Shown here piece by piece: positions 11,523-26,649 of a stretch of DNA of 32,982 nt. The stretch lies in contig NZ_RCZD01000023.1 of assembly GCF_006438725.1 (NCBI RefSeq), positions 1 to 32,982 on the forward strand, in the 5' to 3' direction. The position numbers were made by a program, and so were the translations under genes. This DNA comes from Ewingella americana (GTDB lineage Bacteria; Pseudomonadota; Gammaproteobacteria; Enterobacterales; Enterobacteriaceae). Below the pieces are notes generated by a model, which had not been told where the DNA came from, searched no databases, and saw nothing but the letters and a program-made list of their open reading frames with translations. How positions within the stretch are numbered: position 1 is the first letter of the stretch; each line of letters begins with the position of its first letter.

Positions 11523-11629
11523 TCATCTGTAACCTGAAATATGACCTGTAATGATACCAAATTTAGCGCAGGGGAGATCATTATCTATGCATTTTCAAAT
11601 TGCAATGCCCCGAGCCCCTGGAGGAAACC

Positions 11630-11905: not shown

Positions 11906-11988
11906 GACTAAAGCGTCGTTAAAACCACCGCCTGATAAACAGTGACGTTCAACCCGTCGGGCATTCTATTACCTAAAAAGGAACTTCC

Positions 11989-12039
11989 ATGAAACATCAC
12001 TTTTTAACGGAGGCCGCTGATGGCCGACTGGATCGATGA
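11989..12039 (+). CDS. Possible 16-codon leader ORF
   Basis: ATG at 11989 follows AAAAAGGA with good spacing and encodes MKHHFLTEAADGRLDR, ending in TGA at 12037-12039. It overlaps the start of the zinc-finger gene (12020) by 20 nt in another frame, and its codons contain the GGAGG used by that gene. It could couple translation of the downstream gene; it could also be chance. No known homologue. Confidence 0.3.
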   Translation: MKHHFLTEAADGRLDR

Positions 12040-12241
12040 AGCCCAGGAGTGGCAGGCCAAATTACTGGACGCACAGATTGCTCAGGCGACGGCCTCTTCA
12101 CGTCTGCCTTCTGCCTTTATTTGTGAAGACTGTGGGGAAAATATTCCCGAAGCACGACGTCGTTTAATTATTGGCGTACAGCGCTGTATTTACTGTCAGG
12201 AAATCATTGAAAAAAATGCACGACATTTTCGTTGCGGATAA
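12020..12241 (+). CDS. TraR/DksA-type zinc-finger protein
   Basis: A 73-aa protein with a four-cysteine zinc finger, C35-x2-C38 and C56-x2-C59, in the sequence ICEDCGENIPEARRRL...CIYCQ. This is the DksA/TraR C4-type signature present in small proteins of P2-like phages (186 and P2 early regions). Family members bind RNA polymerase in the secondary channel; whether this one does is inferred. GGAGG precedes the ATG by 7 nt. It lies just upstream of the gpA-like replication gene in the presumed early operon. Confidence 0.88.
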   Translation: MADWIDEAQEWQAKLLDAQIAQATASSRLPSAFICEDCGENIPEARRRLIIGVQRCIYCQEIIEKNARHFRCG

Positions 12242-12254
12242 AGGGGAAAATATC

Positions 12255-14312
12255 ATGTCTGATATTCAGCGGGGGCGTTTTGCCCCGACTCCACCACCGC
12301 CATTTCTTATCGCACCTGCCACCCACTTTGTCGGTGCATGGTGGTGGAATTCGCCGCGCGAAGCGATTTCCAACCCGGTTGTCATTCCCTGCAATCGGGC
12401 CGCTAAAAAACATCAGGAAGCGGCCACGAATATGGCGCGGTTGCCCCACTGCCTGAGAGTACCGCTGCAAAGGCGCTATCAATTTCTGTTGCGGGAAAAA
12501 GGCCAGCAGACGGCGCAGCATTTTCTTCATAACACTTTTCTCGGGCGTCTGTGGCCACGTATTCAAAAAGTTAACCAGCAAAACGGCCTGAAGCGTCACC
12601 TTTCCCTGCGGTTTACCGCCGAAGAGGAGACGTATAACCGCCTTCCCGATCTCAATAAGAAAAACCTCGCCCGGCTGGCCTGGCAAATCGCGACCCAGTG
12701 CCATGAAGTGTATGAGAATCACTGTGAAAAACTGTTGATGCAGTACCCGGACACACCGGAGATCTTGCTGAGCGACAGCACGCAGAATCATATCTTCGCC
12801 ACCCTTGCCAGCATGACGCGTGCACTTAACGTGATGCCTTTACACTGGGCCAGGTTCTGTAAGGGAAAGCTCGATGCCACGGCCGCTGTCGCCAGCCTGT
12901 CGCGATTGGTGAATGCCGACTGGTGGACCCGCCAACTGCTTTCACAACAAACTCGCTGGCGGGAAGCACTGATGATAGCCGGGGGATACGTCAGCCGGGC
13001 AAGTTCGGCATACGCCAGCCAAAATGCGCTGCGTGAGCTCCGTTCCCGGCGCTTATCCACCCTGAACTATCTGCGCAGCTGCGACCTTGAGAATGAACAG
13101 ACCGGCGAGCGGATCGGCCTGCTGGACACGGTGATGTCCAGTATTTCCAATCCTGCCATCCGCAGGATGGAACTGATGACCATGATTGCCGGCATTGAAA
13201 AAGTGGCGAGTCTGCAGGGAGACTGCGGTTTATTCATTACGCTGACCACCCCGTCAAAATACCATCCGACCCGCACAACCGGACGCCAGCGTCAGGTACA
13301 GTTCAATACTAACTGGGATAAACACACCTATTCACCCAAAGATGCTCAGCGCTATCTGGTGGCAGTGTGGGCGAAAATCCGCACCACCTTTAAAGATCGC
13401 AACATCAAAATCTATGGCGTCAGGGTGGTGGAACCCCATCATGACGGCACGCCGCACTGGCATCTGATGCTGTTCACTGCCGCTGCTCAGCAAGCGCTGG
13501 CCGTTGGGATCATGCGCCGCTACGCTCTGACAGAAGAGGGTGATGAGCCTGGTGCGGAGCGTAACCGCTTCGATTGTAAACCGCTCAACCGGGGTGGTGC
13601 AGCGGCGTACATCGCCAAGTACATCTCGAAGAATATTGACGGCTATGCCCTTGAGGGGGAAACCGACTTCGATACCGGTAAACCGCTGACCGACACCGCC
13701 TCAGCGGTCACCGCGTGGGCATCGACGTGGCGCATCCCGCAGTTTCATCCGGTTGGCCTGCCCTCTGTCGGTGCGTATCGCGAGTGCCGCCGCATTCGCA
13801 ATTTAAGCCTGGCCGCGAGTTTTGGTCAGCGTGTTGAGGATGTACGCCAGGCAGCCGATGGCGGCGATTATGCCGCTTATATTCAGGCGCAGGGCGGTAC
13901 CAACGTTCCGCGCACCGAGCAGACCGTGCGGGTGGCGCGCAAAACCCGTGGCCGGGTTAATTCCTATCATGAAGAACAGTTGCAGGTGGTCGGTATCTAC
14001 GCGCCGCATTTGGGCGCTGAACACTGTTATTTGACCCGTTCGGCACGCTGGCGGGTTGTCCGGCGCACACCGCAACCGGATATTTGTGATACCGACAGCG
14101 CGAAGAGTGCATCGAAGAGTGCACCTAGGAGTTCTGTCATTAACTGTGGAAAACCTAATGTAACGCCGGTTGCGCCAAAAGGCCTGGCAGCAGACGATGA
14201 AAGGAAAAAAAATAGCGCCGATCAGCCCAAAATGCTGGCCTTTGGCCTGCAATCACCACCCAGCCGGTTCAATAAGAGATGGCAAAGAAACAACGTAGAA
14301 TCAAACTATTAG
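12255..14312 (+). CDS. A: P2 gpA-like replication initiation endonuclease
   Basis: A 685-aa relative of P2 gene A protein, the HUH endonuclease that nicks the phage origin and starts rolling-circle replication. The HUH motif is seen as PHWHLMLF (H401, H403) and the two catalytic tyrosines in YIAKYISKNI (Y452, Y456), matching the paired Tyr450/Tyr454 of P2 gpA. The start is ATG 12255 (MSDIQRGRFAP) with AAGGGG upstream; a longer frame begins inside the zinc-finger gene and is rejected. The reading frame has no interruption. It is unusual for a tail-only element to keep an apparently intact replication initiator. In P2 the nick site lies inside A; I could not locate one here. Confidence 0.92.
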   Translation: MSDIQRGRFAPTPPPPFLIAPATHFVGAWWWNSPREAISNPVVIPCNRAAKKHQEAATNMARLPHCLRVPLQRRYQFLLREKGQQTAQHFLHNTFLGRLWPRIQKVNQQNGLKRHLSLRFTAEEETYNRLPDLNKKNLARLAWQIATQCHEVYENHCEKLLMQYPDTPEILLSDSTQNHIFATLASMTRALNVMPLHWARFCKGKLDATAAVASLSRLVNADWWTRQLLSQQTRWREALMIAGGYVSRASSAYASQNALRELRSRRLSTLNYLRSCDLENEQTGERIGLLDTVMSSISNPAIRRMELMTMIAGIEKVASLQGDCGLFITLTTPSKYHPTRTTGRQRQVQFNTNWDKHTYSPKDAQRYLVAVWAKIRTTFKDRNIKIYGVRVVEPHHDGTPHWHLMLFTAAAQQALAVGIMRRYALTEEGDEPGAERNRFDCKPLNRGGAAAYIAKYISKNIDGYALEGETDFDTGKPLTDTASAVTAWASTWRIPQFHPVGLPSVGAYRECRRIRNLSLAASFGQRVEDVRQAADGGDYAAYIQAQGGTNVPRTEQTVRVARKTRGRVNSYHEEQLQVVGIYAPHLGAEHCYLTRSARWRVVRRTPQPDICDTDSAKSASKSAPRSSVINCGKPNVTPVAPKGLAADDERKKNSADQPKMLAFGLQSPPSRFNKRWQRNNVESNY

Positions 14313-14334
14313 TGATTTTCAAAGGCAGACAGTA

Positions 14335-14379
14335 TTGACGTGATCCGTTAATTAAATAATACTGTATATAAACACAGTG
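14335..14379 (+). promoter_or_regulatory. LexA box and promoter before the 64-aa ORF
   Basis: TACTGTATATAAACACAGTG (14360-14379) fits the LexA consensus TACTG(TA)5CAGTA, with the invariant CTG-N10-CAG. A TTGACG (14335-14340) with a TAATAC (14357-14362) at 16 bp gives a plausible promoter whose -10 overlaps the box, so LexA should block it until DNA damage. Confidence 0.85.
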
Positions 14380-14395
14380 ACAGAAGGGTCGCACG

Positions 14396-14590
14396 GTGGA
14401 AAACCTGAATAAACAACAATTAATACTTTCACGGATACAACTCATTGCGGATATTTCGCAGACAGCGCAGTGTAATTCACAAGAGTTTCTAATCGTCATG
14501 TCACTGATTTCTGAACTGGCGAGTCAGGCTTTACCTGAGAATCACGACGATGCCGCACCTTATGACCTCAGCGAAATAGATTCTCACTAA
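14396..14590 (+). CDS. Unknown 64-aa protein under predicted SOS control
   Basis: GTG-start ORF with AAGGG 7 nt upstream. The product MENLNKQQLILSRIQ... looks mostly helical in residues 5-46 with an acidic tail (ENHDDAAPYDLSEIDSH). I do not recognise a family; it is not similar to DinI or to the DinI-like C-terminal domain of 186 Tum. Its promoter overlaps a near-consensus LexA box, and it sits between gpA and the late genes of an element governed by a 186 CI-type repressor. By analogy with Tum, which is LexA-controlled and inactivates 186 CI, it is a candidate anti-repressor; this is inference from context only. Confidence 0.7.
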   Translation: MENLNKQQLILSRIQLIADISQTAQCNSQEFLIVMSLISELASQALPENHDDAAPYDLSEIDSH

Positions 14591-14735
14591 CGCCTGACTG
14601 AACCCGGGTACTCTGCGCTAAGCCTCTCCTTTTCGGGCTGCCCGAAAGCAGGCTAGCGCACCCCGTCCTCTTCCTGCTGTATCTCGTATTACCTCCCTGT
14701 TTTTCCCACTGTACTGACCTGTTTTCTCTGCTTCG

Positions 14736-14755
14736 GTTGTGCCACAAGGTTCACA
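14736..14755 (+). promoter_or_regulatory. Ogr-type activator site, late promoter 1
   Basis: GTTGTGCCACAAGGTTCACA contains TGT-N12-ACA (14738-14755), the dyad recognised by Ogr/Delta activators about 55 bp upstream of P2 late transcription starts. It lies 104 bp before gene X, so would drive the X-to-R lysis/tail operon. The rest of the 14591-14839 gap has a possible hairpin (TTTCGGGCTGCCCGAAAG, 14631-14648) and otherwise nothing I can identify. Confidence 0.75.
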
Positions 14756-14839
14756 ACTGCGTTTCATTGCCGCTTCCCCGCCGATTAAGGACACTGGAAT
14801 CTCTCACCAGCCCATCCGCTCCAACACCGGGAAACTAAG

Positions 14840-15043
14840 ATGAAAATTTATGCACAACAAGGGGATACCGTCGATTCGATGTGCTGGCGTTTTTATGGAC
14901 GCACGGCATCGGTAGTCGAGAACGTTTTCAACGCCAATAAAAACATCGCAGAATTTGGCCCCTTATTACCTCACGGTACGCCTGTGGACATGCCCGATAT
15001 CAGCGCAGCGCCAGTAAAAGAATCACTCAAATTATGGGACTGA
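14840..15043 (+). CDS. X: Tail protein X (P2 gpX-like)
   Basis: A 67-aa protein matching P2 gpX in size and sequence type (YAQQGDTVDSMCWRFYG...NIAEFGPLLPHGTPVDMP). gpX is an essential small tail protein with a LysM-like fold. It overlaps the holin gene by 10 nt (stop 15041-15043, holin start 15034), the typical packing of P2 late operons. In P2 it follows the head gene L; here nothing of the head operon precedes it and the late promoter stands directly in front. Confidence 0.93.
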   Translation: MKIYAQQGDTVDSMCWRFYGRTASVVENVFNANKNIAEFGPLLPHGTPVDMPDISAAPVKESLKLWD

Positions 15044-15255
15044 GCACAGAGCGCGTGACCTCAACCTGCGCCTATCTTATCGCCACCTTTTTGGCCTGGC
15101 TCGGCGGGCTCTCGCTGGAAGATATTGCTTTTCTGGTCGGGACTGCGGTCGGTGTAGGGACTTTTCTTGTCAATTGGTACTACCGGCGCAAAAGCTACCT
15201 GCTCCTGGCCCGTAGCGGGCTAAGTAAGGAAACCTATGAACGCCTCAACGATTAA
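15034..15255 (+). CDS. Holin
   Basis: A 73-aa membrane protein with two predicted transmembrane stretches (about 10-28, TCAYLIATFLAWLGGLSL, and 31-49, IAFLVGTAVGVGTFLVNWY) and a basic tail starting YRRK. It resembles the class II-type holins of HP1/P2-like phages and lies between X and the lysozyme gene, the place of P2 gene Y. Holins permeabilise the inner membrane at a set time and activate the endolysin. It overlaps the lysozyme gene by 20 nt. Confidence 0.88.
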   Translation: MGLSTERVTSTCAYLIATFLAWLGGLSLEDIAFLVGTAVGVGTFLVNWYYRRKSYLLLARSGLSKETYERLND

Positions 15256-15745
15256 AAAATGCAGCGCGGCCGTCGTTCTCGGGTTACTGGCGTTACTGCC
15301 GGGATATCTCACGTTATCCACCTCGGAGGCAGGTTTGAAACTGATAGCCGATTTCGAAGGTTGCCAACTGGCACCGTACCAGTGCAGCGCCGGGGTCTGG
15401 ACCAGCGGCATCGGCCACACTGCCGGCGTCACGCCACGCGGCCCCATCACCGAACAAAAAGCAGCAGAAAATTTACTCGCTGATATCAAAACCGTAGAGA
15501 AAGGGCTGCAGACCTGTATGCCCGTCGAGATGCCACAAGCGGTTTATGACGCGGTGGTGGCCTTCACTTTTAACGTCGGGGTCAGCGCCTCCTGCAACTC
15601 GACGCTGGCGTTTTTCATCAAAAAACAGCAGTGGCGCGATGCCTGTGAACAGCTGCCGCGCTGGGTGTTTGTTAAGGGGGTACGCAGCGCAGGGCTTGAG
15701 CGTCGCCGGGCCGCCGAACGCGCCTTATGCCTGAGTGGCGCCTGA
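15236..15745 (+). CDS. Phage lysozyme (GH24 endolysin) with N-terminal membrane anchor
   Basis: A 169-aa muramidase of the T4/P21 lysozyme family. The catalytic triad pattern E-x8-D/C-x5-T is present as E41...C50...T56 in FEGCQLAPYQCSAGVWTSG. Cysteine replaces the usual aspartate, a variant known in the family. Residues 11-27 are hydrophobic (AAVVLGLLALLPGYLTL) and suggest a signal-anchor-release or uncleaved anchor, as in P21-type endolysins. It shares TGATG with the next gene. Its role would be to open the wall so that tail particles escape. Confidence 0.92.
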   Translation: MNASTIKKCSAAVVLGLLALLPGYLTLSTSEAGLKLIADFEGCQLAPYQCSAGVWTSGIGHTAGVTPRGPITEQKAAENLLADIKTVEKGLQTCMPVEMPQAVYDAVVAFTFNVGVSASCNSTLAFFIKKQQWRDACEQLPRWVFVKGVRSAGLERRRAAERALCLSGA

Positions 15746-16173
15746 TGATACGTACCCTGATTTTACTCACAGGCACGCTGCTGCTGGCTCTGCTGCTGCT
15801 GTTTTTTTACAACCACGAATTACAGCAGGAGAAAAATAGGCTCGCCCACGACCGTGATGCACTGGCGCTGCAACTCAATGGCCGTGACCAGCAAATAGCC
15901 GAACTTGCCCGGCAGGTGCAGCAGCGTGAAAGCGCTGAACTGGCGCTGCGTCAGGCACTCGGCAAAGCCAGCACGCTGACCGTACAGCGAGAACAACAGT
16001 TTCAGAGGAGCCGTAATGAAGATCCTGCCGTTAAAACATGGGCTGACAGCGCTCTGCCCGCTGCTGTTAGCCAGTTGCACCAGCGCCCCGACTTCGCCTC
16101 CGCCACAGATTATTTACGTTGGCTGTCCGCTGGTCAGCCCCTGCCCGATACCCGGCAGCCAGCCGAAAAATAA
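15745..16173 (+). CDS. lysB: LysB-like inner-membrane spanin (Rz)
   Basis: A 142-aa protein with one N-terminal membrane segment (about 3-22, leucine-rich) followed by a long coiled coil (about 25-90) rich in Gln/Glu/Leu/Arg. This is the layout of i-spanins and of P2 LysB. ATG 15745 is preferred to an ATG at 15727 because it overlaps the lysozyme stop as TGATG. It contains the start of the o-spanin gene in another frame, the classic embedded Rz/Rz1 arrangement. Spanins fuse inner and outer membranes in the last step of lysis. Confidence 0.9.
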   Translation: MIRTLILLTGTLLLALLLLFFYNHELQQEKNRLAHDRDALALQLNGRDQQIAELARQVQQRESAELALRQALGKASTLTVQREQQFQRSRNEDPAVKTWADSALPAAVSQLHQRPDFASATDYLRWLSAGQPLPDTRQPAEK

Positions 16174-16306
16174 CGGCGATCTTAGTGCCGACGTTCGTCA
16201 GCTTGAGGCCGCTTTGCTCACCTGCGGCCTGCAGGTCGACACCATCAAACAATGTCAGGAGACACAACGTGTTAAAACCCACTCAACTGCAACAACGGCT
16301 GATTGA
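16016..16306 (+). CDS. lysC: LysC-like outer-membrane spanin lipoprotein (Rz1)
   Basis: A 96-aa lipoprotein with a signal peptide and lipobox LLAS-C, so lipidation is predicted at C21, followed by a proline-rich CTSAPTSPPPQ start of the mature chain, typical for Rz1. It begins inside lysB in a different frame and extends 133 nt past it, overlapping the first 38 nt of gene R. GAGGAG lies just before the start codon. It pairs with the coiled-coil i-spanin across the periplasm. Confidence 0.9.
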   Translation: MKILPLKHGLTALCPLLLASCTSAPTSPPPQIIYVGCPLVSPCPIPGSQPKNNGDLSADVRQLEAALLTCGLQVDTIKQCQETQRVKTHSTATTAD

Positions 16307-16730
16307 GCAGATCCCGCTGCTCAGCACACAGCCTGAAAAACTGGTGATACTCACCGGTAACGGCAACGTGGTTTCCACGCTGGCCCCTTCACTTTCTTTC
16401 GAATACCGCTTCCCGCTAACACTGACCGTCAGTGACAGCGGACTCAGCGACAAACTGGCGGATCTTATTGTCGTCACCGTACTCGATTGGCTGACGGAAA
16501 ATCAGCCCGACATTCTGAGCAGCAGTACCCGCAGGCTGACCGATGTGAGTTACGCGCGGCAGGAAAACAGCCTGACGATGACCTTGCAGCTGACCGAGCG
16601 CGTTCAGGTTCAGGACACTGACGGCGTACGTACCATTACGCATCTGCCCGAACCACCGCGGCCTGAGGATAACGTCCGGCCACATCAGGTTTATCTCAAT
16701 GGCGAACTGATAAGCCACTGGGCTGAGTGA
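16269..16730 (+). CDS. R: Tail completion protein R (P2 gpR-like)
   Basis: A 153-aa homologue of P2 gpR (155 aa): LKPTQLQQ at the start, TLAPSLSFEYRFPL, WLTENQPDI, and the C-terminal YLNGELISHW, which parallels YINGELVSKW in P2. The start is GTG 16269 with AGGAG 8 nt upstream; a longer frame to 16119 overlaps the spanin genes and lacks support. gpR terminates the tail tube or sheath at the head-proximal end. In P2, gene S follows; here S is absent, and the next gene is V after a late-promoter region. Confidence 0.92.
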   Translation: MLKPTQLQQRLIEQIPLLSTQPEKLVILTGNGNVVSTLAPSLSFEYRFPLTLTVSDSGLSDKLADLIVVTVLDWLTENQPDILSSSTRRLTDVSYARQENSLTMTLQLTERVQVQDTDGVRTITHLPEPPRPEDNVRPHQVYLNGELISHWAE

Positions 16731-16750
16731 CCCGGTTTCCGTCACCGTTC

Positions 16751-16770
16751 GTTGTGCCACGGCCCGCCGG
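16751..16770 (+). promoter_or_regulatory. Ogr-type activator site, late promoter 2 (half-degenerate)
   Basis: GTTGTGCCAC is repeated exactly from late promoter 1, but the distal half of the dyad is CGG rather than ACA. It lies 68 bp before gene V, the position of the P2 PV promoter. The 88-bp R-V gap is where P2 gene S would end, so the spacing suggests a clean loss of S with retention of the promoter. Confidence 0.6.
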
Positions 16771-16818
16771 GCGCTGACTGATTGTCGACTTCCCCCTCTA
16801 AACGGCATCCTTAATTTC

Positions 16819-17460
16819 ATGAATACACATACACAACTCAACGACATCATGCGGCTGCTCAACAACCTTGTGCGCATTGGGACTGTCACCGCCATCGACC
16901 TCGAAAATGCCCGCTGCCGGGTGACCACGGGCAACAACATCACCGCCTGGCTACCCTGGATGACCAGCCGTGCCGGACGCACCCGCAGTTGGTGGGCGCC
17001 GTCAGTCGGCGAACAAGTTTTATTACTGTCGATGGGGGGCGAACTGACGACGGCATTCGTGCTGCCGGCTATTTTTTCGGATGCCAACCCGGCACCGTCG
17101 GCGTCAGCGGATGCCGTTCACCTGAGCTTCCCGGACGGTGCCGTGATCGAATACGAACCGGCCAACGGTGTGTTGACAGCCAGCGGCATCAAGTCCGCCA
17201 ACATCACCGCTGCCGACCATATTTCGGTCACTGCACCGCTGATTGCATGCCATGCCAGCACCCGCATCACCCTGGAGACCCCTGAAGTGGTGTGCAGTAG
17301 CAAGCTCATCACCGGCTCGCTTGAGGTCAAACAGGGCGGCACCATGACCGGCAATATCAGCCACAGCGGGGGAAGCTTCACCTCGAATGGCATTGCTTTA
17401 CACACCCACCGCCACAGCGGCGTACAGACTGGCGGCGGTCAAACCGGAGGCCCGCAATGA
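16819..17460 (+). CDS. V: Baseplate spike protein V
   Basis: A 213-aa homologue of P2 gpV, the trimeric spike that tips the tail tube and pierces the outer membrane. The OB-fold N-terminal part contains WWAPSVGEQVLLLS, followed by the beta-helix stem (PDGAVIEYEP, TPEVVCSSKLITGSLEVKQGG). The C-terminal HTHRH (H195, H197, H199) includes the HxH motif that binds iron at the spike apex in P2. All spike features are intact, so membrane piercing should be retained. It overlaps W by ATGA. Confidence 0.96.
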   Translation: MNTHTQLNDIMRLLNNLVRIGTVTAIDLENARCRVTTGNNITAWLPWMTSRAGRTRSWWAPSVGEQVLLLSMGGELTTAFVLPAIFSDANPAPSASADAVHLSFPDGAVIEYEPANGVLTASGIKSANITAADHISVTAPLIACHASTRITLETPEVVCSSKLITGSLEVKQGGTMTGNISHSGGSFTSNGIALHTHRHSGVQTGGGQTGGPQ

Positions 17461-17807
17461 GTGATCCCAAGTACCTTGGCATGGCGCGCGAAAGCGGTCT
17501 GGCAATAGAAGATCTCGACCATATTCGCCAGTCCATCAGCGACATTTTGCAGACACCAATAGGTACACGCGTCATGCGCCGTGACTACGGTTCACTGCTG
17601 TCGACGCTGATTGACCAGCCGCAAAACGATGCGCTGCGCCTGCAAATCATGGCGGTGTGCTACTCCGCGCTGTTGCAGTGGGAGCCCCGAATCTCGCTGA
17701 CCGCCATCACCTTTAACGCCGGTAACAGCGGCAAAATGGTGGTGGATATGACCGGATACCGTAGCGATACGGCGACGGATTTTTCCCTGAGCATTCCTGT
17801 GAGCTGA
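17457..17807 (+). CDS. W: Baseplate wedge protein W (gp25-like)
   Basis: A 116-aa protein of the gp25/lysozyme-like baseplate family (P2 gpW, 115 aa). It includes the RVMRRDYGSLL segment, close to the conserved sequence that contacts the sheath and triggers its assembly in contractile systems. It overlaps V by 4 nt and is followed 4 nt later by J. Confidence 0.95.
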   Translation: MSDPKYLGMARESGLAIEDLDHIRQSISDILQTPIGTRVMRRDYGSLLSTLIDQPQNDALRLQIMAVCYSALLQWEPRISLTAITFNAGNSGKMVVDMTGYRSDTATDFSLSIPVS

Positions 17808-17811
17808 CACT

Positions 17812-18720
17812 ATGGCGACTATCGATTTAAGCCAGTTACCTGCCCCGGACGTGGTAGAGCAACTGGACTATGAAAGCCTGTTTGAAGAGCGAAAATCCAC
17901 CCTAATCTCGCTCTATCCGGCCGAACAACAAGCGGCCATCAGCCGCACGCTGGCGTTGGAGTCCGAGCCGCTGGTCAAGCTGCTGCAGGAGAACGCCTAC
18001 CGCGAAGTGATCCTGCGTCAGCGGGTCAACGAAGCCGCCCGCGCCGTGATGGTGGCTTATGCTACGGGCAGTGATTTGGACCAGTTGGCGGCGAATACCA
18101 ACGTTGGGCGCCTGGTGCTGCAACCAGCAGACCAGACAACGGTACCGCCGACTGACGCCGTAATGGAAAGTGATACGGATTTCCGCATGCGCATTCCGCA
18201 GGCTTTCGAGGGGTTGAGCGTGGCCGGTCCGACGGGCGCTTATGAATACCATGCCCGCAGTGCCGATGGACGGGTTGCCGATGCATCGGCTATCAGCCCG
18301 TCACCGGCTGAAGTCACCATCACTATTCTTTCCCGTGACAATGAGGGTAAGGCTTCTGCCGATTTGTTGGCCGCCGTCGACAAAGCGCTGAATGACGAAG
18401 ATGTGCGTCCGGTAGCAGATCGCGTCACCGTTCAGGCAGCCAACATCGTCCCTTATGAAATCAGGGCGGTACTGTTTGTATTGCCGACCCCTGAAATTGA
18501 GCCGGTACGCGCGGCTTCCGAAGCCCAACTCAAGAAATACATCAATACACAAAGCCGGTTAGGCCGGGATATCCGTCTCTCTGCTATCTACGCCGCCCTG
18601 CATGTCGAAGGGGTCCAGCGCGTGGAACTGACGTCTCCCGTAGCAGATATCGTGCTGGATAAAACGCAAGCCTCACTGTGCACCGCCTATACGTTATCCG
18701 TCGGAGGATCTGATGAATGA
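17812..18720 (+). CDS. J: Baseplate wedge protein J
   Basis: A 302-aa protein, the same length as P2 gpJ and of the gp6/J baseplate family. It opens with MATIDLSQLPAPDVVEQLDYE and contains TGSDLDQLAANTNVGR and the EGVQRVELTSP segment near the end. It forms the iris of the baseplate with W and I. It overlaps gene I by 8 nt. Confidence 0.95.
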   Translation: MATIDLSQLPAPDVVEQLDYESLFEERKSTLISLYPAEQQAAISRTLALESEPLVKLLQENAYREVILRQRVNEAARAVMVAYATGSDLDQLAANTNVGRLVLQPADQTTVPPTDAVMESDTDFRMRIPQAFEGLSVAGPTGAYEYHARSADGRVADASAISPSPAEVTITILSRDNEGKASADLLAAVDKALNDEDVRPVADRVTVQAANIVPYEIRAVLFVLPTPEIEPVRAASEAQLKKYINTQSRLGRDIRLSAIYAALHVEGVQRVELTSPVADIVLDKTQASLCTAYTLSVGGSDE

Positions 18721-19327
18721 TCGTCTGTTACCTTCTGGCTCTTCGACACTGGAGGTGGCTGCGGCACAAGCTCTGGCTCAGATAGGGTTGATTCCGGTAC
18801 CGCTGCGTCAGCTCTGGAACCCGGACACCTGCCCGCTGCCACTGCTGCCCTATATTGCCTGGGCATTCTCCGTCGACCGCTGGGATGAGCACTGGACAGA
18901 AACCGCCAAGCGTTCAGCCGTACGATCTGCCTGGTTTGTGCATAAACATAAAGGCACCATCGGCGCCCTGCGCCGGGTGGTTGAACCTCTGGGTTACTTA
19001 ATTCGCGTCACCGAATGGTGGCAGACAAAGGATGTCCCAGGCACCTTTCGCCTGGATGTTGGCGTACTGGAAACCGGTATTACCGAAGAGATGTACGAGG
19101 AGCTCGAGCGCCTGATTTCTGACGCCAAGCCATGCAGCCGCCATCTGATTGGGCTCTCTATCAATCTGGATTTCACAGGTGACCTTTATATGGCGGCCGC
19201 CACCTATGACGGCGAAGAGTTGACTGTTTACCCCTATTTCCCAGAGACCATCATCGCGTCCGGTTCTGCGTTCACCGGTTCGGCTATTCATTTAATCGAC
19301 AACCTGAGAGTAAATTATGACAGCTAA
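18713..19327 (+). CDS. I: Tail formation protein I
   Basis: A 204-aa P2 gpI homologue (P2 gpI about 176 aa). Characteristic stretches are LLPSGSSTLEVAAAQAL, LPYIAWAFSVDRWDEHW and RSAWFVHKHKGT. gpI connects the wedges to the tail fibres. It is slightly longer than P2 I at its C-terminus, which is where it meets the fibre; the gene overlaps H by 11 nt. Confidence 0.94.
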   Translation: MNDRLLPSGSSTLEVAAAQALAQIGLIPVPLRQLWNPDTCPLPLLPYIAWAFSVDRWDEHWTETAKRSAVRSAWFVHKHKGTIGALRRVVEPLGYLIRVTEWWQTKDVPGTFRLDVGVLETGITEEMYEELERLISDAKPCSRHLIGLSINLDFTGDLYMAAATYDGEELTVYPYFPETIIASGSAFTGSAIHLIDNLRVNYDS

Positions 19328-20603
19328 ATACTATGCCCTACTGACCAATCTGGGCGTCGCCAAACTGGCCAACGCGACTGCGCTCGGTACACAACTGAGC
19401 CTGACGCAAATGGCCGTCGGTGACGGCGGCGGCGCATTGCCAACGCCGGATCCAGCGCAAACCAAACTGATCGGTGAAAAACGCCGCGCCTCACTGAATT
19501 CACTCAGCGTTGACCCGGCAAATACCAATCAAATTATTGCCGAGCAGATCATTCCTGAAGATCAGGGCGGTTTCTGGATCCGTGAAATCGGCCTGTTCGA
19601 CCAGGACAATACGCTGATCGCCATCGCTAACTGCCCGGAAACCTATAAACCGCAGCTGCAGGAAGGCAGCGGCCGCACGCAAACCGTACGCATGATCATC
19701 GTGGTCAACAGCACCGAAGCCGTGACACTGAAAATCGATCCGTCAGTGGTGCTGGCAACCCGGAAATATGTCGATGATAAAGTGATTGAAGTGAAGGCTT
19801 ATGCTGATGATGTGATGGCAAAGCATCTGGCGGCAGCGAATCCACACAATCAGTATTTGCAAATCAGTAAGTCTTTGGCAGAAATTAAAGCAGTGGGGCC
19901 TGATGCTGTGGCGGCGGTTCTTACTAATCTTGGTTTGGGAGTAAATAAATTTCAGGGCCGTATTTTAAATATTCTAAAATTCACTAAAAGCGGAAGTTAT
20001 TCCCCTACCGAGGGAACGCGATTTATTAAGGTTTACGTCACTGGCGGCGGCGGCGGCGGCGGTGGTGCTGTAGCTACGGGCTCGAATCAAGGGGCAATCG
20101 GGTCCGGCGGAGGTGCTGCTGGTACTGCAATATCTCATTTAATAATTAGTGATCTATCATTGCCTGTCAATTTTACCGTGGGTACTGGCGGAAGTGGGGG
20201 TAATGGAGCACAAGAACCACAATCAGGAAAAAATAGCAGCTTCGGAACATTTTTGACGGCTTCTGCAGGTGCGCGGGCAGCAAGCGGGCAAATATTCAAT
20301 TTTGGCGAATCTAGAATACTTGCAAATGGCGGAGCAGGTATTGGAAATGGTGGGAATTTCTTAAACTTAAAAGGGCAACCGGGTACCCCAGCGCTTACCT
20401 TTTCGGGAAGTTATGAAAGCGGTGGTGGGGGCGCATCATACTATGCTGGGGGCGGTGATCCTATTGCAGCTGGAGTAACTTACCCTGGCCAGGAGGGTAT
20501 TTTAGGGGCCGGTGGGGCAGGTGCTTTTAATGTCCAAAACTCTCCGAATCAGCAAGGCGGAAAAGGTGGTGACGGTATTATAATTATTGAGGAATACACA
20601 TAA
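19317..20603 (+). CDS. H: Tail fibre protein H with glycine-rich tip
   Basis: A 428-aa fibre, much shorter than P2 gpH (669 aa). The N-terminal 150 residues (MTAKYYALLTNLGVAKLANA, GGFWIREIGLFD) are the conserved baseplate-attachment domain of P2-like fibres. After a short linker (about 155-220) the tip from about 228 is glycine-rich, with an eight-glycine run at 243-250 and repeated GGxG segments to the end; it resembles Gly_rich_2 tips of enterobacterial fibres. The DNA of the distal third is visibly A/T-richer than the proximal part, a sign of exchange of the receptor-binding module. No fibre-assembly chaperone (gene G) follows. Confidence 0.93.
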   Translation: MTAKYYALLTNLGVAKLANATALGTQLSLTQMAVGDGGGALPTPDPAQTKLIGEKRRASLNSLSVDPANTNQIIAEQIIPEDQGGFWIREIGLFDQDNTLIAIANCPETYKPQLQEGSGRTQTVRMIIVVNSTEAVTLKIDPSVVLATRKYVDDKVIEVKAYADDVMAKHLAAANPHNQYLQISKSLAEIKAVGPDAVAAVLTNLGLGVNKFQGRILNILKFTKSGSYSPTEGTRFIKVYVTGGGGGGGGAVATGSNQGAIGSGGGAAGTAISHLIISDLSLPVNFTVGTGGSGGNGAQEPQSGKNSSFGTFLTASAGARAASGQIFNFGESRILANGGAGIGNGGNFLNLKGQPGTPALTFSGSYESGGGGASYYAGGGDPIAAGVTYPGQEGILGAGGAGAFNVQNSPNQQGGKGGDGIIIIEEYT

Positions 20604-20835: not shown

Positions 20836-22005
20836 ATGGCTGATTATCACCACGGCGTACGCGTTATTGAAATCAATGACGGCACCCGCGTTATTTCTAC
20901 TGTTTCCACTGCCATTATCGGCATGGTGTGTACCGCGAAAGATGCGGATGCCACCCTGTTTCCCCTCAACACACCGGTGCTGATCACCGACGTTCTGGCC
21001 GCCAGCGGCAAGGCGGGTAAAACCGGCACTCTGGGCCCGGCGCTGCTGGCTATCGCCGATCAGTGCAAACCTGTCACCGTGGTCGTTCGCGTTGAAGAAG
21101 GTGAAAACGAAGCGGTAACTACGACCAATATTATCGGCGGCTCTGACGCTAACGGCCGTTACACCGGTATGAAAGCCCTGCTCTCTGCACAGGCGGAGCT
21201 GGGCGTGAAACCGCGTATTTTGGGCGTCCCTGGCCATGACAATCAGGCGGTGGCCACAGCACTGGCAGCAGTTTGCCAGCAGCTGCGCGCGTTCGGTTAC
21301 ATCAGCGTATTTGGTGCAAAGACCATTGCCGATGCCATTAAGTACCGCGACAACTTCAGCCAGCGTGAGCTGATGCTGATTTGGCCGGACTTCGTTAACT
21401 GGAATACCACCACCAGCCAGTCGGATACCGCTTACGCTTCGGCACGCGCACTGGGCCTGCGTGCCAAAATCGACCAGGACACCGGCTGGCATAAAACGCT
21501 GTCCAACGTTGGCGTCAACGGCGTAACCGGTCTTTCCGCCAGCGTGTTCTGGGACTTACAGGCCACCGGCACCGATGCCGATCTGCTGAACCAGGCCTGC
21601 GTCACCACGCTGGTGCGTAAAGACGGCTTCCGCTTCTGGGGCAACCGCACCTGTAGCGATGACCCGTTATTCGCGTTCGAAAACTACACCCGTACCGCGC
21701 AGATCCTGGCTGACACCATGGCCGAAGCGCATATGTGGGCAGTCGACAAGCCAATGACCCCTTCCCTTATCCGCGACATGATCGACGGCATCAAAGCCAA
21801 AATGCGCGAAATGAAATCTGCCGGTTACCTCATTGATGGCGACTGCTGGTATGACGAAGCGGCTAACACGCCGGAGTCATTGAAGGCGGGCAAGCTGTAC
21901 ATCGATTACGACTACACGCCGGTTCCACCACTGGAAGATCTGACTCTGCGCCAACGCATCACCGACAAATACCTGGTGAACTTTGCCGCTTCCGTGAACA
22001 GCTAA
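20836..22005 (+). CDS. FI: Tail sheath protein FI
   Basis: A 389-aa contractile sheath homologous to P2 gpFI (396 aa), about 42-43 kDa. The start MADYHHGVRVIEINDGTRVI and the C-terminal TDKYLVNFAASVNS are typical, as is the KPRILGVPGHDNQ segment. Contraction of the sheath drives tube and spike through the envelope. Serracin P, a tailocin of Serratia plymuthica, was reported to contain a subunit of about this mass. First gene of the FI-FII-E-T-U-D operon. Confidence 0.97.
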   Translation: MADYHHGVRVIEINDGTRVISTVSTAIIGMVCTAKDADATLFPLNTPVLITDVLAASGKAGKTGTLGPALLAIADQCKPVTVVVRVEEGENEAVTTTNIIGGSDANGRYTGMKALLSAQAELGVKPRILGVPGHDNQAVATALAAVCQQLRAFGYISVFGAKTIADAIKYRDNFSQRELMLIWPDFVNWNTTTSQSDTAYASARALGLRAKIDQDTGWHKTLSNVGVNGVTGLSASVFWDLQATGTDADLLNQACVTTLVRKDGFRFWGNRTCSDDPLFAFENYTRTAQILADTMAEAHMWAVDKPMTPSLIRDMIDGIKAKMREMKSAGYLIDGDCWYDEAANTPESLKAGKLYIDYDYTPVPPLEDLTLRQRITDKYLVNFAASVNS

Positions 22006-22019
22006 GGAGATTTTGACTC

Positions 22020-22529
22020 ATGGCACTCCCTAAGAAACTGAAATACCTGAACCTGTTCAACGACGGGAACAGCTACCTCGGCGTGGTCTCCTCTCTGACC
22101 CTGCCAAAACTAACCCGCAAGCTGGAAAAATATCGCGGCGGCGGCATGAGCGGTTCAACCTCCGTGGACTTCGGTCTGGATGATGACGCGCTGGCGCTCG
22201 AGTGGTCCATCGGCGGTATTGATGAACTGGTTTTGCAGCAATGGGGCAGCACAGCGGATATTCCCCTGCGTTTCGCCGGTTCATTCCAGCGCGACGACAC
22301 CGGTGAGATCTCCGCCGTAGAAGTGGTGATGCGCGGCCGTCACAAAGAGTTTGATTTTGGTGAGTATAAGCAGGGTGAAGATACCGAAACCAAAATCACC
22401 ACCGACTGCACTTACTTCAAACTGACCATCGACGGCAAAGAGCTGATTGAAATCGATACCGTCAACATGGTGGAAATCGTCAACGGCGTCGATCGCCTGG
22501 CTGAACACCGCACGGCACTCGGTCTTTAA
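22020..22529 (+). CDS. FII: Tail tube protein FII
   Basis: A 169-aa major tube protein like P2 gpFII (172 aa): MALPKKLKYLNLFNDGNSYLG, VDFGLDDDALALEWSIGG, and VNGVDRLAEHRTALGL at the end. It polymerises into hexamer rings inside the sheath. It follows FI by 14 nt with AAGGAG as ribosome site. A hairpin (22539-22558) follows the gene. Confidence 0.96.
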   Translation: MALPKKLKYLNLFNDGNSYLGVVSSLTLPKLTRKLEKYRGGGMSGSTSVDFGLDDDALALEWSIGGIDELVLQQWGSTADIPLRFAGSFQRDDTGEISAVEVVMRGRHKEFDFGEYKQGEDTETKITTDCTYFKLTIDGKELIEIDTVNMVEIVNGVDRLAEHRTALGL

Positions 22530-22538
22530 CTCCCCACG

Positions 22539-22558
22539 GCCGGCAAAATATTGCCGGC
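22539..22558 (+). promoter_or_regulatory. Hairpin between FII and E
   Basis: GCCGGCAA-AATA-TTGCCGGC forms a perfect 8-bp stem and 4-nt loop 10 nt after the FII stop. No T-run follows, so it is more likely an RNA-stability or partial-attenuation element that lets sheath and tube be made in excess over E and T; function is inferred. Confidence 0.5.
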
Positions 22559-22585
22559 TGCTTCTCTGACTAAGCAGGAATCCTC

Positions 22586-22864
22586 ATGAGCCTCGAAGAA
22601 AATACCGTCGTTCTCGATGTACCCCTTAAACGCGGTGACGTTGAGATTACTGAAATCCAGGTAACCAAACCCAATGCCGGTAGCCTGCGTGGGATTGGTC
22701 TGGCCGCACTGGCCAATGCCGACGTTGACGCGCTAATCACCATTTTACCGCGCATCACTTACCCGAACCTGACCAAAGAAGAGTGCGCCCGTCTTGAATT
22801 ACCGGACCTGATCGCCCTGGCTGGCAAGGTGATCGGTTTTTTGTCGCCGAAACTGGCCGGGTAA
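22586..22864 (+). CDS. E: Tail assembly protein E
   Basis: A 92-aa homologue of P2 gpE (91 aa), a tape-measure chaperone needed for tail assembly but not kept in the particle. Contains VTKPNAGSLRGIGLAAL. Near its end, in frame, is the slippery heptamer T-TTT-TTG (22837-22843), which allows a fraction of ribosomes to shift -1 and make the longer E+E' product. Confidence 0.94.
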   Translation: MSLEENTVVLDVPLKRGDVEITEIQVTKPNAGSLRGIGLAALANADVDALITILPRITYPNLTKEECARLELPDLIALAGKVIGFLSPKLAG

Positions 22865-23019
22865 ACATCGATCCCCGACTGACCGTTGAAGATCTGATGG
22901 CAGATATCGCGGTGATTTTTCATTGGCCGCCGTCCGCAATGGACGGCATGTTTCTCACCGAGTTGATGAACTGGCGATATAAAGCGTTGCAACGCAGTGG
23001 AGTAAAAACAGATGAGTAA
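22843..23019 (+). CDS. E': E' extension made by -1 frameshift (E+E')
   Basis: Downstream of the TTTTTTG slip site, the -1 frame reads VAETGRVNIDPRLTVEDLMA through ADIAVIFHWPPS to MNWRYKALQRSGVKTDE and stops at 23017-23019. It adds 58 residues to the first 86 of E, for about 144 aa. P2 produces an equivalent E+E' by -1 shift at the same kind of T6G heptamer. It has no start codon or ribosome site of its own. Its stop overlaps the start of T. The conserved shift is strong evidence that the tail is functional. Confidence 0.9.
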   Translation, partial: VAETGRVNIDPRLTVEDLMADIAVIFHWPPSAMDGMFLTELMNWRYKALQRSGVKTDE

Positions 23020-24697
23020 TTTCGAACAGATCCCCGCCACGTTGGGGAAAATCATTCAACAACTCCAGCCCCTGAAAAATGCCACCTCTGACGTCTGGAA
23101 GCGTTTTACCCAATCCCCGCCAAGAACCTTATTTAGCCGGATGTCAGAAGATATCGACCGCACGGCCGAAGAACTTCAGGGATTGGGAAAAGGGTCGCAG
23201 GTATTAGATAAATTATCTGCTGCCCGGAGCCAGCTCGCGGTCAATGGCCCTGCCCTCTTACGACGTCCAAAACCTGCCGAGTCGAGCAGTCAGCAACCAT
23301 TCGCCGGCAACCGGCCACACCCGGAGAGTCAGAAGCAGCAAGGCAGCGACATCGGTCAACAATACAGAGCCCGGGCACAGAAGATTGATCAGCTGAAAAA
23401 CACCAGTTCGTCGATGGTCGCCTTTGCGCAGCCAAAACTTGAGCTGGCAAAAAACATCTTCCAGCCTGGTGCTGATTTGCAAAAAGGCTTATCCGAAATG
23501 CAGGCGAAGCTTGGCCTGAAGAATAGCGATCCGCGCCTTGCAGCACTGCGTCAGCAAACTCTGTCCATGGCGAACAGTGGCCATAGCCCGGCAGACGTCC
23601 TGACTCAACAAAGCAATCTGGCAGCTAACGGTTTAAATGCGGATCAGATTCTGGCCCAAACGCCGGCAGCCCTTAATGGTGCAACACCGGTCGCGCAAAC
23701 CGAGGTACGGGTGAAGGGTGACAATCTGGACGGCGATATCACCAAGCTGTTCGCCACCTGGGACACGATCCGTATCAATCTATTTGACGGGCAAAGCGCT
23801 GCACTGCGCGAACTGACGCAAACAGCAACTGGCTGGCTGACCACCCTGAACACCTGGATAACCGATAATCCCCAGTTGGTGAACTCATTAATGACGGTAG
23901 CACTGGGTATAACCGGCTTAGTGGGCGGCTTGGGTTTTCTTGGCACGGTCATCGCTCCGGTACTCAGTGGGGTCAATATGTTAATGGCAGCCGCAGGTTT
24001 GCTTGGTGGCGTGTTCACCAGCACCGGTGGCGTTATCGCGGCGGCTTTCGCTGCTATCGGATTGCCCCTGCTGCCCGTTATCGCGCTGATTGCCGGGATT
24101 GGCATTGCAGTGGTCAAACTCTGGGACCCCATCAGCGCCTTTGTCAGCGGCATGATTGAAGGTTTCAGCTCCGTGATGGGGCCGGTAAGTGACGCTTTTG
24201 CCCCCTTCCAGACTGCGCTGACCTGGATAACTGATTTATTCGCGCCCATCAAATTCAGTAAAGATGAACTTAATGGCTACAGTGAAATTGGTAAAAATGT
24301 CGGCGAGGCACTTGCCGCTATTTTCGTCACGCTGAATAAAGCCGTTGCGCAGATCGGGGAAGTGTTCAATTGGGCCAGAAAAGGAATTGATTCGGTCTTG
24401 AATTTCTTCAGCGACGACTCGAATGAACCACCAGCGCAGCAAAATACATCCGTGGATTTTGGCAATAGCATGACACCCAGCGGCGGCGTATTAAGTTTGT
24501 ATCAGCCGGCGAAGGTCAACGCGGCAAACACGCTCGCGGACAACCGGGCTACTACAGTTAATTTAAGTTTTACCGCCACCCCGGAGACCGATCAACAGCA
24601 GGTCCAAAAATGGATATCAGAAGCCATTGATCAACACGACTCAAACAAAACCACTGCCCAACTGAGTCAGTTCGGGTTCGGAGGATATTATTCATGA
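23012..24697 (+). CDS. T: Tail tape measure protein T (short form)
   Basis: A 561-aa tape measure, the scaffold that sets tail length, with a hydrophobic region (about 285-375) that includes several membrane-like stretches (LGITGLVGGLGFLGTVIAPVL; VIAAAFAAIGLPLLPVIALIAG). P2 gpT is 815 aa. The N-terminal half is rich in Gln/Ala/Ser and carries PKPAESSSQQ-type low-complexity sequence. Using the P2 ratio (815 aa for a tail of about 135 nm), the particle should be roughly 90-95 nm; this is an estimate. The start overlaps the E' stop and the end overlaps U. Confidence 0.92.
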   Translation: MSNFEQIPATLGKIIQQLQPLKNATSDVWKRFTQSPPRTLFSRMSEDIDRTAEELQGLGKGSQVLDKLSAARSQLAVNGPALLRRPKPAESSSQQPFAGNRPHPESQKQQGSDIGQQYRARAQKIDQLKNTSSSMVAFAQPKLELAKNIFQPGADLQKGLSEMQAKLGLKNSDPRLAALRQQTLSMANSGHSPADVLTQQSNLAANGLNADQILAQTPAALNGATPVAQTEVRVKGDNLDGDITKLFATWDTIRINLFDGQSAALRELTQTATGWLTTLNTWITDNPQLVNSLMTVALGITGLVGGLGFLGTVIAPVLSGVNMLMAAAGLLGGVFTSTGGVIAAAFAAIGLPLLPVIALIAGIGIAVVKLWDPISAFVSGMIEGFSSVMGPVSDAFAPFQTALTWITDLFAPIKFSKDELNGYSEIGKNVGEALAAIFVTLNKAVAQIGEVFNWARKGIDSVLNFFSDDSNEPPAQQNTSVDFGNSMTPSGGVLSLYQPAKVNAANTLADNRATTVNLSFTATPETDQQQVQKWISEAIDQHDSNKTTAQLSQFGFGGYYS

Positions 24698-25173
24698 TGA
24701 TGACACTGGGATTATTTGTTTTCAAACTCAGAACCCTTCCCTACCAGACCCTGGATCGGGACGTAAAATACAGTTGGGCGGAAAACAGCCGCATCGGCCA
24801 GCGCCCGATTTCGCAATATCTTGGCCTCGGCACTGAAACCATTGCGCTGGCCGGACAGCTGTTACCGGAACTGACCGGTGGTCTGCGCTATTTGCAGATT
24901 TTGCAGAATATGGCGGATTCGGGACGCGCATGGCCACTGATTGAAGGCAGCGGGACGATTTATGGCATGTTCGTGGTGCAGAACATCCATCACAACAACG
25001 CGCAGCTAAATGCCGATGGCCGCGCGCGGAGTGTCAATTTCACATTGACGCTAAAACGCGTAGATGAATCCTACTCTGCGATGTTTGCAGATCTGCAGGA
25101 TCAGGCATATGGCTTGTATGAAAAAGCCAGTTCGGCGGTCAAACAGTTTTACCCGGGCGGGATAAGCCTATGA
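24694..25173 (+). CDS. U: Tail protein U
   Basis: A 159-aa homologue of P2 gpU, equal in length: MMMTLGLFVFKLRTLPYQTL, NSRIGQRPISQYLG, GRAWPLIEGSGTIYGMFV and RVDESYSAMFADL. gpU-family proteins act in baseplate hub or tail assembly. Three ATG codons in tandem overlap the T stop, so the exact first residue is ambiguous by one or two positions. Confidence 0.95.
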   Translation: MMMTLGLFVFKLRTLPYQTLDRDVKYSWAENSRIGQRPISQYLGLGTETIALAGQLLPELTGGLRYLQILQNMADSGRAWPLIEGSGTIYGMFVVQNIHHNNAQLNADGRARSVNFTLTLKRVDESYSAMFADLQDQAYGLYEKASSAVKQFYPGGISL

Positions 25174-26318
25174 TCACTCAACTTCAATTACCCGCTGGCG
25201 CACGGATCGTGCCAGACTTTACACTGATGGTGAAAAATAAAGCCCTGGAACAAAGCGTGCGCGAGCGGGTGATGTCGATCAAAATGACCGACAACAGCGG
25301 CTTTACCGCCGATACCCTGGAAGTCCTCTTTGATGACAGCGACGGCGCCTTTCAGATGCCGGAACGAGGTACTGTATTGCACTTGCACCTGGGTTGGTCG
25401 GGGCAGGCGTTATACGACTGTGGCTCGTTTATCGTTGATACGGTGACCCACAACGGTGCGCCGGACAGGCTGAGTATCGTGGCCAGAAGCGCTGACTTTC
25501 GTGGAAGCTTTGATACTAAGGGCAGTTATTCTTATGACGACACCACCCTTGGCGCTATCGTTCGCCTGGTTTCCCAACGCAATAAACTGCAGCTGCCACA
25601 GCTATTGCCTGAGCTCGATGCAATTACCATTACGCATATTGATCAAACCAATGAAACCGACGCCTATTTCCTGATGCGTCTGGCCCAGATGAACGGTGCA
25701 CAGGCTACGGTAAAACAGGGAACGATCCTTTTTATCAAGCCAGGCTATGGCCTGACAGCATCGGGCAAGGCGATACCCTGGATGAGTATTAACCGCTCGG
25801 ATGGTGACTCACATTCATTCAAAATCATCGATAAACAGGCTTACTCCGGGGTCACAGCCATCTGGCATGACGTCAAAAAAGCCCAGTCTCCCCAGGTTGC
25901 CCTTCAACGTAGCGGTGCAAAACCTGGCGCGGCGAGTTCACCGCACCCTGCGTCGAAAATGAGTGGTGAAAGTGCCGGGAGTGATGCCACTGAGCAGAGT
26001 TATATGGCCGGCGCTAAAGAGAACCTTTTAGTGCTGAGCAAGATTTATGCTGACCAGGAATCTGCTACGCGGGCCGCTGACTCAGTTTTCAAGCAGATTC
26101 AATCTGGTGTCGCGTCGTTCAGTATTAAGCTGGCTTTGGGCAGGGCTGATCTTTTTCCTCAAACTCCGGTGGTGGTCAGTGGATTCAAAGATGTCATCGA
26201 TAGTCAGCGCTGGATCATTGATTCAGTGGTGCACGATGTCGCTGACAAAGGGTTCGTCACCACCTTGAATTTGAAAGTTTATATTAATGACATAACTTAC
26301 CAGGCCTCAATTACATAA
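25170..26318 (+). CDS. D: Baseplate hub protein D
   Basis: A 382-aa protein homologous to P2 gpD (387 aa), structurally the gp27-like hub that sits between tube and spike (often named phage late control protein D). The N-terminal MITQLQLPAGARIVPDFTLMVKNKAL and the segment NETDAYFLMRLAQMNGAQATVK are characteristic. It overlaps U by ATGA and is the last gene of the FI operon. It ends just before the ogr promoter. Confidence 0.95.
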   Translation: MITQLQLPAGARIVPDFTLMVKNKALEQSVRERVMSIKMTDNSGFTADTLEVLFDDSDGAFQMPERGTVLHLHLGWSGQALYDCGSFIVDTVTHNGAPDRLSIVARSADFRGSFDTKGSYSYDDTTLGAIVRLVSQRNKLQLPQLLPELDAITITHIDQTNETDAYFLMRLAQMNGAQATVKQGTILFIKPGYGLTASGKAIPWMSINRSDGDSHSFKIIDKQAYSGVTAIWHDVKKAQSPQVALQRSGAKPGAASSPHPASKMSGESAGSDATEQSYMAGAKENLLVLSKIYADQESATRAADSVFKQIQSGVASFSIKLALGRADLFPQTPVVVSGFKDVIDSQRWIIDSVVHDVADKGFVTTLNLKVYINDITYQASIT

Positions 26319-26320
26319 CT

Positions 26321-26353
26321 TAACTTGCTTTTGCAAGTTATTCGTTTCATAAT
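26321..26353 (+). promoter_or_regulatory. ogr promoter with repressor operator
   Basis: TAACTTGC-TTTT-GCAAGTTA is a perfect 20-bp palindrome (26321-26340) that contains AACTTG-N6-CAAGTT, identical in half-sites and spacing to the operator at the early promoter (11499-11516). It overlaps the -35 of a promoter TTGCTT (26325-26330), 17 bp, CATAAT (26348-26353). In phage 186, CI represses both pR and the pB promoter of the Ogr homologue B, so direct repression of ogr by the CI-like protein is expected here. Confidence 0.75.
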
Positions 26354-26387: not shown

Positions 26388-26579
26388 ATGATGCATTGTC
26401 CACTGTGCGGTAAGGTCGCCCACACCCGTTCAAGCCGCTATCTCAGCGAGTCGACCAAAGAACGCTATCATCAGTGCCAGAATATTGAGTGCAGCTGTAC
26501 ATTCGCCACACACGAGTCCGTCGCCCGCGTTATTTCCAAGCCGGGCGTGACTTTGCAAGCAGGAATGCAAACAGCCTGA
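26388..26579 (+). CDS. ogr: Ogr/Delta-type late gene activator
   Basis: A 63-aa zinc-finger activator like P2 Ogr (72 aa) and 186 B. Zinc ligands are C4, C7, C30 and C35 in MMHCPLCGKVAHTRSSRYLS and YHQCQNIEC. Ogr contacts RNA polymerase alpha and binds TGT-N12-ACA dyads upstream of late promoters; matching elements are at 14738, 16753 and 20744. GGAGG lies 5 nt before ATG 26388. The C-terminus is somewhat shorter than P2 Ogr. It is the last gene of the element. Confidence 0.95.
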   Translation: MMHCPLCGKVAHTRSSRYLSESTKERYHQCQNIECSCTFATHESVARVISKPGVTLQAGMQTA

Positions 26580-26624: not shown

Positions 26625-26649
26625 GCCTGCTGCCCCGCAGGCTTTTTTT
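26625..26649 (+). terminator. ogr terminator, right end of element
   Basis: GCCTGC-TGCCCC-GCAGGC followed by seven T. A weaker hairpin with six T (26591-26612) precedes it. No direct repeat typical of an attachment core was recognised here. Confidence 0.88.

Follow-up and report, generated by a model that had tools for sequence, protein, structure and literature searches.

The closest described systems are coliphage 186, Salmonella phage PSP3 and two P2-like phage-tail bacteriocins of the Enterobacterales, the Dickeya dadantii 3937 tailocin and the Yersinia enterocoliticin, to which the element analysed here is alike. For 186, the interplay of SOS, LexA, Tum and CI is described in passages of PMC7708051, and the sequence record (NC_001317) lists two CI sites "for repression of pB", three at pR, and the further sites FL and FR. 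The same record gives a putative LexA site at p95, a LexA-repressed tum whose product "inhibits CI DNA binding", and a terminator, tB, for transcripts of pB and of the late promoter alike. In PSP3, according to a passage of PMC3121763, antirepressor activity is encoded by the upstream half. Enterocoliticin carries an ORF annotated as CI in part of PMC13030884, in the searched text of which ogr, LexA and SOS are used 0 times; in that of PMC10719855, a term search found ogr, repressor, operator, promoter and SOS used 0 times. The literature searched, a limited library, yielded no paper on the operators of this tailocin group.

The window, i.e., the whole 32,982-nucleotide stretch of Ewingella americana DNA that was analysed (NZ_RCZD01000023.1), holds an element flanked by rplS and an aroF-type DAHP synthase gene. 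Known here from its genes, it has the content of a P2-like tailocin: tail and lysis genes are present, and no capsid, portal, terminase or integrase was found among the 25 window ORFs scanned with PHROGs. Among the same 25 ORFs no match was annotated as cII, apl/cox or int, several of them (e.g., 11541-11786, 11600-11905 and 10599-10892) matching only families of unknown function, or none. The features that matter for its regulation are as follows, in window coordinates.

10870-11460, minus strand: cI, repressor of 196 aa with one HTH and a C-terminal domain (Pfam domains, PHROGs, structure match)
11494-11522, plus strand: early promoter, TTGACA-17-TAAATT (promoter scan, conservation in kin)
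11499-11516, no strand: predicted CI operator in the early promoter, AACTTGCAAATACAAGTT (motif scan, promoter scan, conservation in kin, cross-prediction)
11600-14312, plus strand: early operon, with a phrog_602 ORF (11600-11905), a DksA-like ORF (12020-12241) and the gpA replication protein (12255-14312) (domain and PHROGs matches)
14362-14377, no strand: LexA-type box CTGTATATAAACACAG at the -10 of a promoter-like TTGACG-17-AATACT (box scan, conservation in kin)
14396-14590, plus strand: tumA homologue, 64 aa, putative antirepressor of CI (alignment comparison, BLASTP)
14738-14755, plus strand: Ogr-type box TGT-N12-ACA before the lysis/tail operon (pattern scan, recurrence in kin)
14840-20603, plus strand: late operon 1, with baseplate hub (gpX-like), holin, endolysin, spanins, tail terminator, baseplate and fibre (PHROGs)
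20836-26318, plus strand: late operon 2, with sheath, phrog_55 protein, E, tape measure, U and D (domains, PHROGs)
26322-26339, no strand: predicted CI operator over the -35 of the ogr promoter, AACTTGCTTTTGCAAGTT (motif scan, conservation in kin, cross-prediction)
26325-26353, plus strand: putative ogr promoter, TTGCTT-17-CATAAT, with a weak -35 (conservation in kin)
26388-26579, plus strand: ogr, late activator of 63 aa, Ogr_Delta zinc finger (domain and PHROGs matches)
26625-26642, plus strand: terminator-like hairpin 3' of ogr, at the place of 186 tB (terminator scan, 186 tB annotation)

The 196-aa protein has the domain pair of the 186-type CI repressors, Phage_CI_repr (PF07022, 4.9e-26) with its HTH and Phage_CI_C (PF16452, 3.5e-20), and among solved chains it matches 2fjr (E 3.5e-23), titled "Repressor protein CI" and taken to be 186 CI. 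Palindromic sites at the early and ogr promoters, as expected of such a repressor, are also there. The first-pass annotation had claimed two copies of AACTTG-N6-CAAGTT, at 11499-11516 and 26322-26339; both are exact, they are the only exact copies in the window, and 14.8 kb separates them from one promoter to the other. The first had been placed in the spacer of the early promoter, and the promoter scan indeed found TTGACA-17-TAAATT around it, directed away from cI, with the -35 at 11494-11499 and the -10 at 11517-11522, so that the operator fills the spacer, beginning at the last base of the -35 and ending at the -10. No leftward cI promoter was identified by the promoter scan. The second copy, said to lie over the ogr -35, does cover the putative TTGCTT at 26325-26330 (with the -10 CATAAT at 26348-26353), a promoter missed by the strict scan and called from its conservation in kin.

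About 0.0009 exact copies of the motif are expected per window under a third-order Markov model in which the halves are treated as independent. The annotation had named many copies in unrelated loci as the outcome that would speak against its reading, and the count in the own genome (5.35 Mb, 39 contigs) gave two exact copies, both on the same contig, as against none for the reversed control. When up to two mismatches were allowed, four sites were found in the window (25921 and 26262 being the additional ones), with a shuffle mean of 1.41 and four reached in 1 of 100 shuffles. Up to one mismatch, the genome holds 8 copies of the motif and 10 of the reversed control, so the one-mismatch copies elsewhere are background. 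The family-wide scan of 295 genomes likewise found the exact motif no commoner than its control (40 genomes, mostly with a single copy, versus about 46 counted from the same table); a lone copy is therefore no evidence, and it is the pair on two promoters of one element that is.

Close relatives of this cI were found at 14 loci in Ewingella americana, two Enterobacterales assemblies, Rahnella species and Chimaeribacter, and in all 14 of these single-HTH loci an aroF-type gene adjoins the element. Conservation was followed in 11 single-HTH tailocin loci, i.e., the own locus and ten from the Ewingella group, Rahnella and Chimaeribacter, three of the ten being on split contigs. At the early site 0-2 mismatches are seen in 11/11 loci, and in every one it starts 39 nt before cI, within a promoter whose -35 is TTGACA or TTGACG and whose -10, TARAKT, abuts the operator (11/11). 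The ogr site has 0-2 mismatches in ten and three in the remaining one (G024), and the candidate ogr -35 overlaps it in 10/11, the operator of G103 ending just before the likely -35; in G296 (L222/L223) the site is shifted by about 6 bp. Mean column identity is 0.92 at the ogr site versus 0.55 upstream and 0.66 downstream, and 0.90 at the early site versus 0.83 before it, a stretch that includes the cI start, and 0.64 after it; these columns were aligned on the best-matching copy of the motif, a procedure that favours the site.

The strongest argument for one protein reading both sites comes from cross-prediction. Four site models were built, from the early sites of Rahnella and Chimaeribacter, from their ogr sites, and from the same two places in the other Ewingella-group loci, and each ranks 11499 and 26322 as the two best sites of the window, the training sites having been chosen by likeness to the motif inside fixed windows of 20 bp (early) and 70 bp (ogr). 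This shows that both places carry one motif in the kin, and that it recurs in the window only at 11499 and 26322. Lying 60 bp ahead of the ogr operator, 26262 comes third under each of the four models and was considered as a third operator; it scores at most 6.9 in 9/11 loci, is found in G000 and G024 only, and was taken as gpD coding sequence.

The proposal of the annotation that one repressor serves both ends of the tailocin is thus supported by the CI family, by the sites kept in the kin and by their mutual prediction, all of it read from sequence. Very probably, CI holds the early promoter and ogr off, SOS and TumA free both, and Ogr drives the late genes. A dimer of the 196-aa CI would bind AACTTGCaa-type half-sites at both promoters and block RNA polymerase, with the spacer filled at the early promoter and the -35 covered at the ogr promoter, and with no Ogr made, both late operons, one for lysis, baseplate and fibre and one for sheath, tube and hub, would stay inactive. 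DNA damage would then lead to the cleavage of LexA and the synthesis of the 64-aa TumA, which would bind CI and free both promoters, and the Ogr so released would activate the late operons, whose transcripts could read through gpD into ogr, giving positive feedback, and terminate at the hairpin 3' of it. The predicted circuit, in which LexA represses TumA, TumA inhibits CI, CI represses the early promoter and ogr, and Ogr activates the tail genes, offers a testable full wiring for domesticated P2-like tailocins: the silencing protein, its two sites and the release by DNA damage.

Another DNA-binding protein, either a host regulator or Ogr itself, might use both sites, autoregulation by Ogr being conceivable. 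A host regulon would not be expected to have just two exact copies in the genome, neither operator holds an exact match to the Ogr-type TGT-N12-ACA, and a start 39 nt before cI in 11/11 loci is that of a repressor's own operator, which leaves this reading very improbable. It is also conceivable that the ogr copy serves as an RNA hairpin or terminates transcription where gpD ends, and that it resembles the early site by coincidence; 26321-26340 can form a hairpin and is listed as terminator-like by the scan, and when 70 nt were folded from each of the 11 loci, the energies ranged from -6.5 to -21.0 kcal/mol and nine loci had a hairpin at this position. Against this, the best folds of G024 and G296 are without it, the early copy sits in a promoter spacer, models made from early sites only find the ogr copy, and a separate terminator-like hairpin, with a T run in the scan, lies 3' of ogr at 26625; such an incidental likeness is hardly credible.

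Even if CI binds both sites, repression of ogr might be minor, with the early promoter as the real control and the level of Ogr set by late read-through or basal ogr expression. The operator hairpin is the sole terminator-like site of the scan in the gpD-ogr interval, and 186 tB is annotated as ending pB as well as late-promoter transcripts, which would both fit read-through. This read-through requires Ogr beforehand, and the ogr site is conserved like the early site while its flanks are less so, which makes a minor role unlikely, and repression by CI at both promoters remains the preferred reading.

For the late operons, TGT-N12-ACA, presumably the definition of the P2 Ogr box, occurs in the window no more often than by chance (6 versus 7.4), and it is found 327-378 nt 3' of the LexA box in 12/12 kin loci where that box was located. 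The string TTGTGCCAC is present three times on the plus strand, at 14737, 16752 and 20743, two of which directly precede the two late operons, and 20743 looks like a degenerate Ogr box. The phrog_55 protein of the second operon is labelled "head closure" and was called tube by its position. Elsewhere in the genome lie more genes like ogr (52%; 62% over 37 residues) and another CI-like gene (31%), at G000:C12:504613, G000:C35:390918 and G000:C36:78646. Control of these other P2-type genes by the present CI was considered and dropped, the best scores in the 3-kb loci around the two ogr-like genes (L062, L065) and the second CI (L037) being -0.7, 3.7 and 3.9.

Induction would follow the plan of 186, with a LexA box before a homologue of the Tum antirepressor, behind gene A, the antirepressor role being putative here. 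The 64-aa ORF is present in 13 of the 14 named single-HTH tailocin loci, L242 ending short of it. An alignment of 16 TumA rows compared by hhalign with single sequences matched PSP3 TumA at 97.8% (E 8.8e-13) and the N-terminus of 186 Tum at 84.7% (E 6.7e-6), and BLASTP to PSP3 TumA gave E 4e-8 in one comparison. In the window, one exact LexA box does not stand out from chance (mean 0.44), so the evidence for it is its conservation: it lies at -37/-38 of tumA in 12/13 kin, as CTGTATATAAACACAG in 11 and as a variant in L248. The remaining locus, L236, which goes with L222/L223 (G296), has no LexA box before tumA, and the missing box together with the shifted ogr operator suggests that this tailocin is perhaps uncoupled from SOS.

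Coliphage 186 and the tailocin each have a repressor of the CI family, CI sites (predicted in the tailocin) on the early promoter and on that of ogr (B), a LexA-controlled tum behind gene A and a terminator, here predicted, behind ogr. CI of 186 had been invoked as repressing both pR and pB, and this is so annotated in its record; as a precedent for the same operator at both promoters, however, 186 does not serve, its pR sites differing in sequence from those of pB, FL and FR. The pR sequence is ATCTCTCAATTGGGAGAT, FL, FR and pB having another (TTCAC...GTGAA type), whereas the tailocin has one sequence at both promoters. CI sites of 186 are known as A-type and B-type. They are grouped at pR and pB, in contrast to one good site per promoter in the tailocin, and 186 is a full phage with int, apl and cII, whereas the tailocin is not; moreover, the tailocin TumA of 64 aa has no DinI half. 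Unlike 186, the tailocin has no good FL- or FR-type auxiliary site in the window: 11175, inside cI, scores 7.8 at the FL place, and no window score exceeds 6.5 at the FR place. The FL place scores 14.3 and 13.0 in two of the 11 loci and at most 7.8 in the others, and 11175 was taken as a relic. The scheme as such is known from 186, and what appears to be new is the one operator type at both promoters across the tailocin group.

The operator type is shared by PSP3, where three model scores exceed 20 in a 5.5-kb stretch, at the pag/ogr promoter, within cI and ahead of cII. PSP3 and PSP3-like prophages also have the split tumA of the tailocin. PSP3 CI, however, is a protein of 286 aa with two HTH domains, as against 196 aa and one HTH; its cI-upstream stretch has no strong tailocin-type site (next best 8.3), and PSP3 has cII and int, neither of which was found in the tailocin.

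Over a wider family of 57 related cI/ogr pairs (the own, 51 on one contig and five on two contigs), the cI and ogr regions of the same element were more alike than permuted ones (14.63 versus 13.95, sd 0.13; 0/5000). This held for the 46 pairs left without the 11 tailocin kin (14.28 versus 13.76; 1/5000), and for one element from each of 17 clusters (14.27 versus 13.54; median p 0.0033, the lowest value this test can give). Several elements, among them G258, G207, G162 and G221, show no more likeness to their own ogr region than to foreign ones, and a free test of 18-mer sharing per element was underpowered, single elements often being uninformative. A clear diverged case is G119, where a 20-bp stretch with TTCACTTTATGTGAA is common to both regions and is of the 186 FL/FR/pB type. 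In 7/8 Serratia tailocin-type loci a tailocin-type site (12.3-21.4) lies near the start of a cI of double-HTH length, with no promoter mapped there. On account of these seven, sharing of one operator type by both promoters is not claimed for the single-HTH tailocins alone; it is evident in them, and Serratia may have it too. Three single-HTH prophage loci, from Citrobacter, Franconibacter and a contig under the label Chryseobacterium, carry different palindromes in their pR spacers. Among these loci (L249, L250, L251), the spacer palindrome of L250 still scores 16.5 in the tailocin model, and the sites about 350 nt from the cI start score 21.5 in L251, 9.9 in L249 and 9.3 in L250. Perhaps these repressors have two operator types each, as in 186, with a strong tailocin-type site in L251 only.

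One Serratia locus (L258, Serratia sp. AKBS12) has only cI, tumA and ogr found between the rplS and aroF-type genes, at 7816-14841. Its 20.8 kb gave no match to gpA or to 12 tail and lysis proteins of the window, several of which are matched by each of the other seven Serratia loci, and its ogr operator is kept with one mismatch (G032). It is either a regulator-only remnant or a set of regulators acting in trans.

The domesticated tailocin family adjoins the same aroF-type gene in the Ewingella-group, Rahnella, Chimaeribacter and Serratia loci. Domestication may have trimmed the lysogeny switch, with int, cII and the auxiliary sites lost, the antirepressor left without a DinI half, and the repressor, two operators, LexA box and Ogr kept. 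In PSP3-like cI genes a tailocin-type palindrome lies between the HTH domains (in PSP3 at L232:2836-2853), at the place matching the early operator, 39 nt before residue 1. Tentatively, and with somewhat less than even confidence, the tailocin switch can be viewed as a two-operator phage switch collapsed to one operator, the early operator descending from this intragenic palindrome; loss of the first HTH would have exposed it, and one single-HTH repressor would then have served both the early and the ogr promoter through one sequence. The opposite course, in which duplication of operator and HTH gave rise to the double-HTH form, fits the same data.

Among 36 long-form cI genes read in an upstream-extended frame, with the double HTH shown for PSP3 only, most carry an in-frame linker palindrome, e.g., TTTGCAAATGCAAA, and in 30/36 it is no more than a codon away from the position that is homologous to the tailocin early operator. 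Alanine codons in the linker palindromes are GCA in 42 of 49 cases, versus 74 of 382 elsewhere in the pieces analysed; as the palindromes were picked by a score that itself favours GCA, in related genes, this excess only suggests selection on the DNA.
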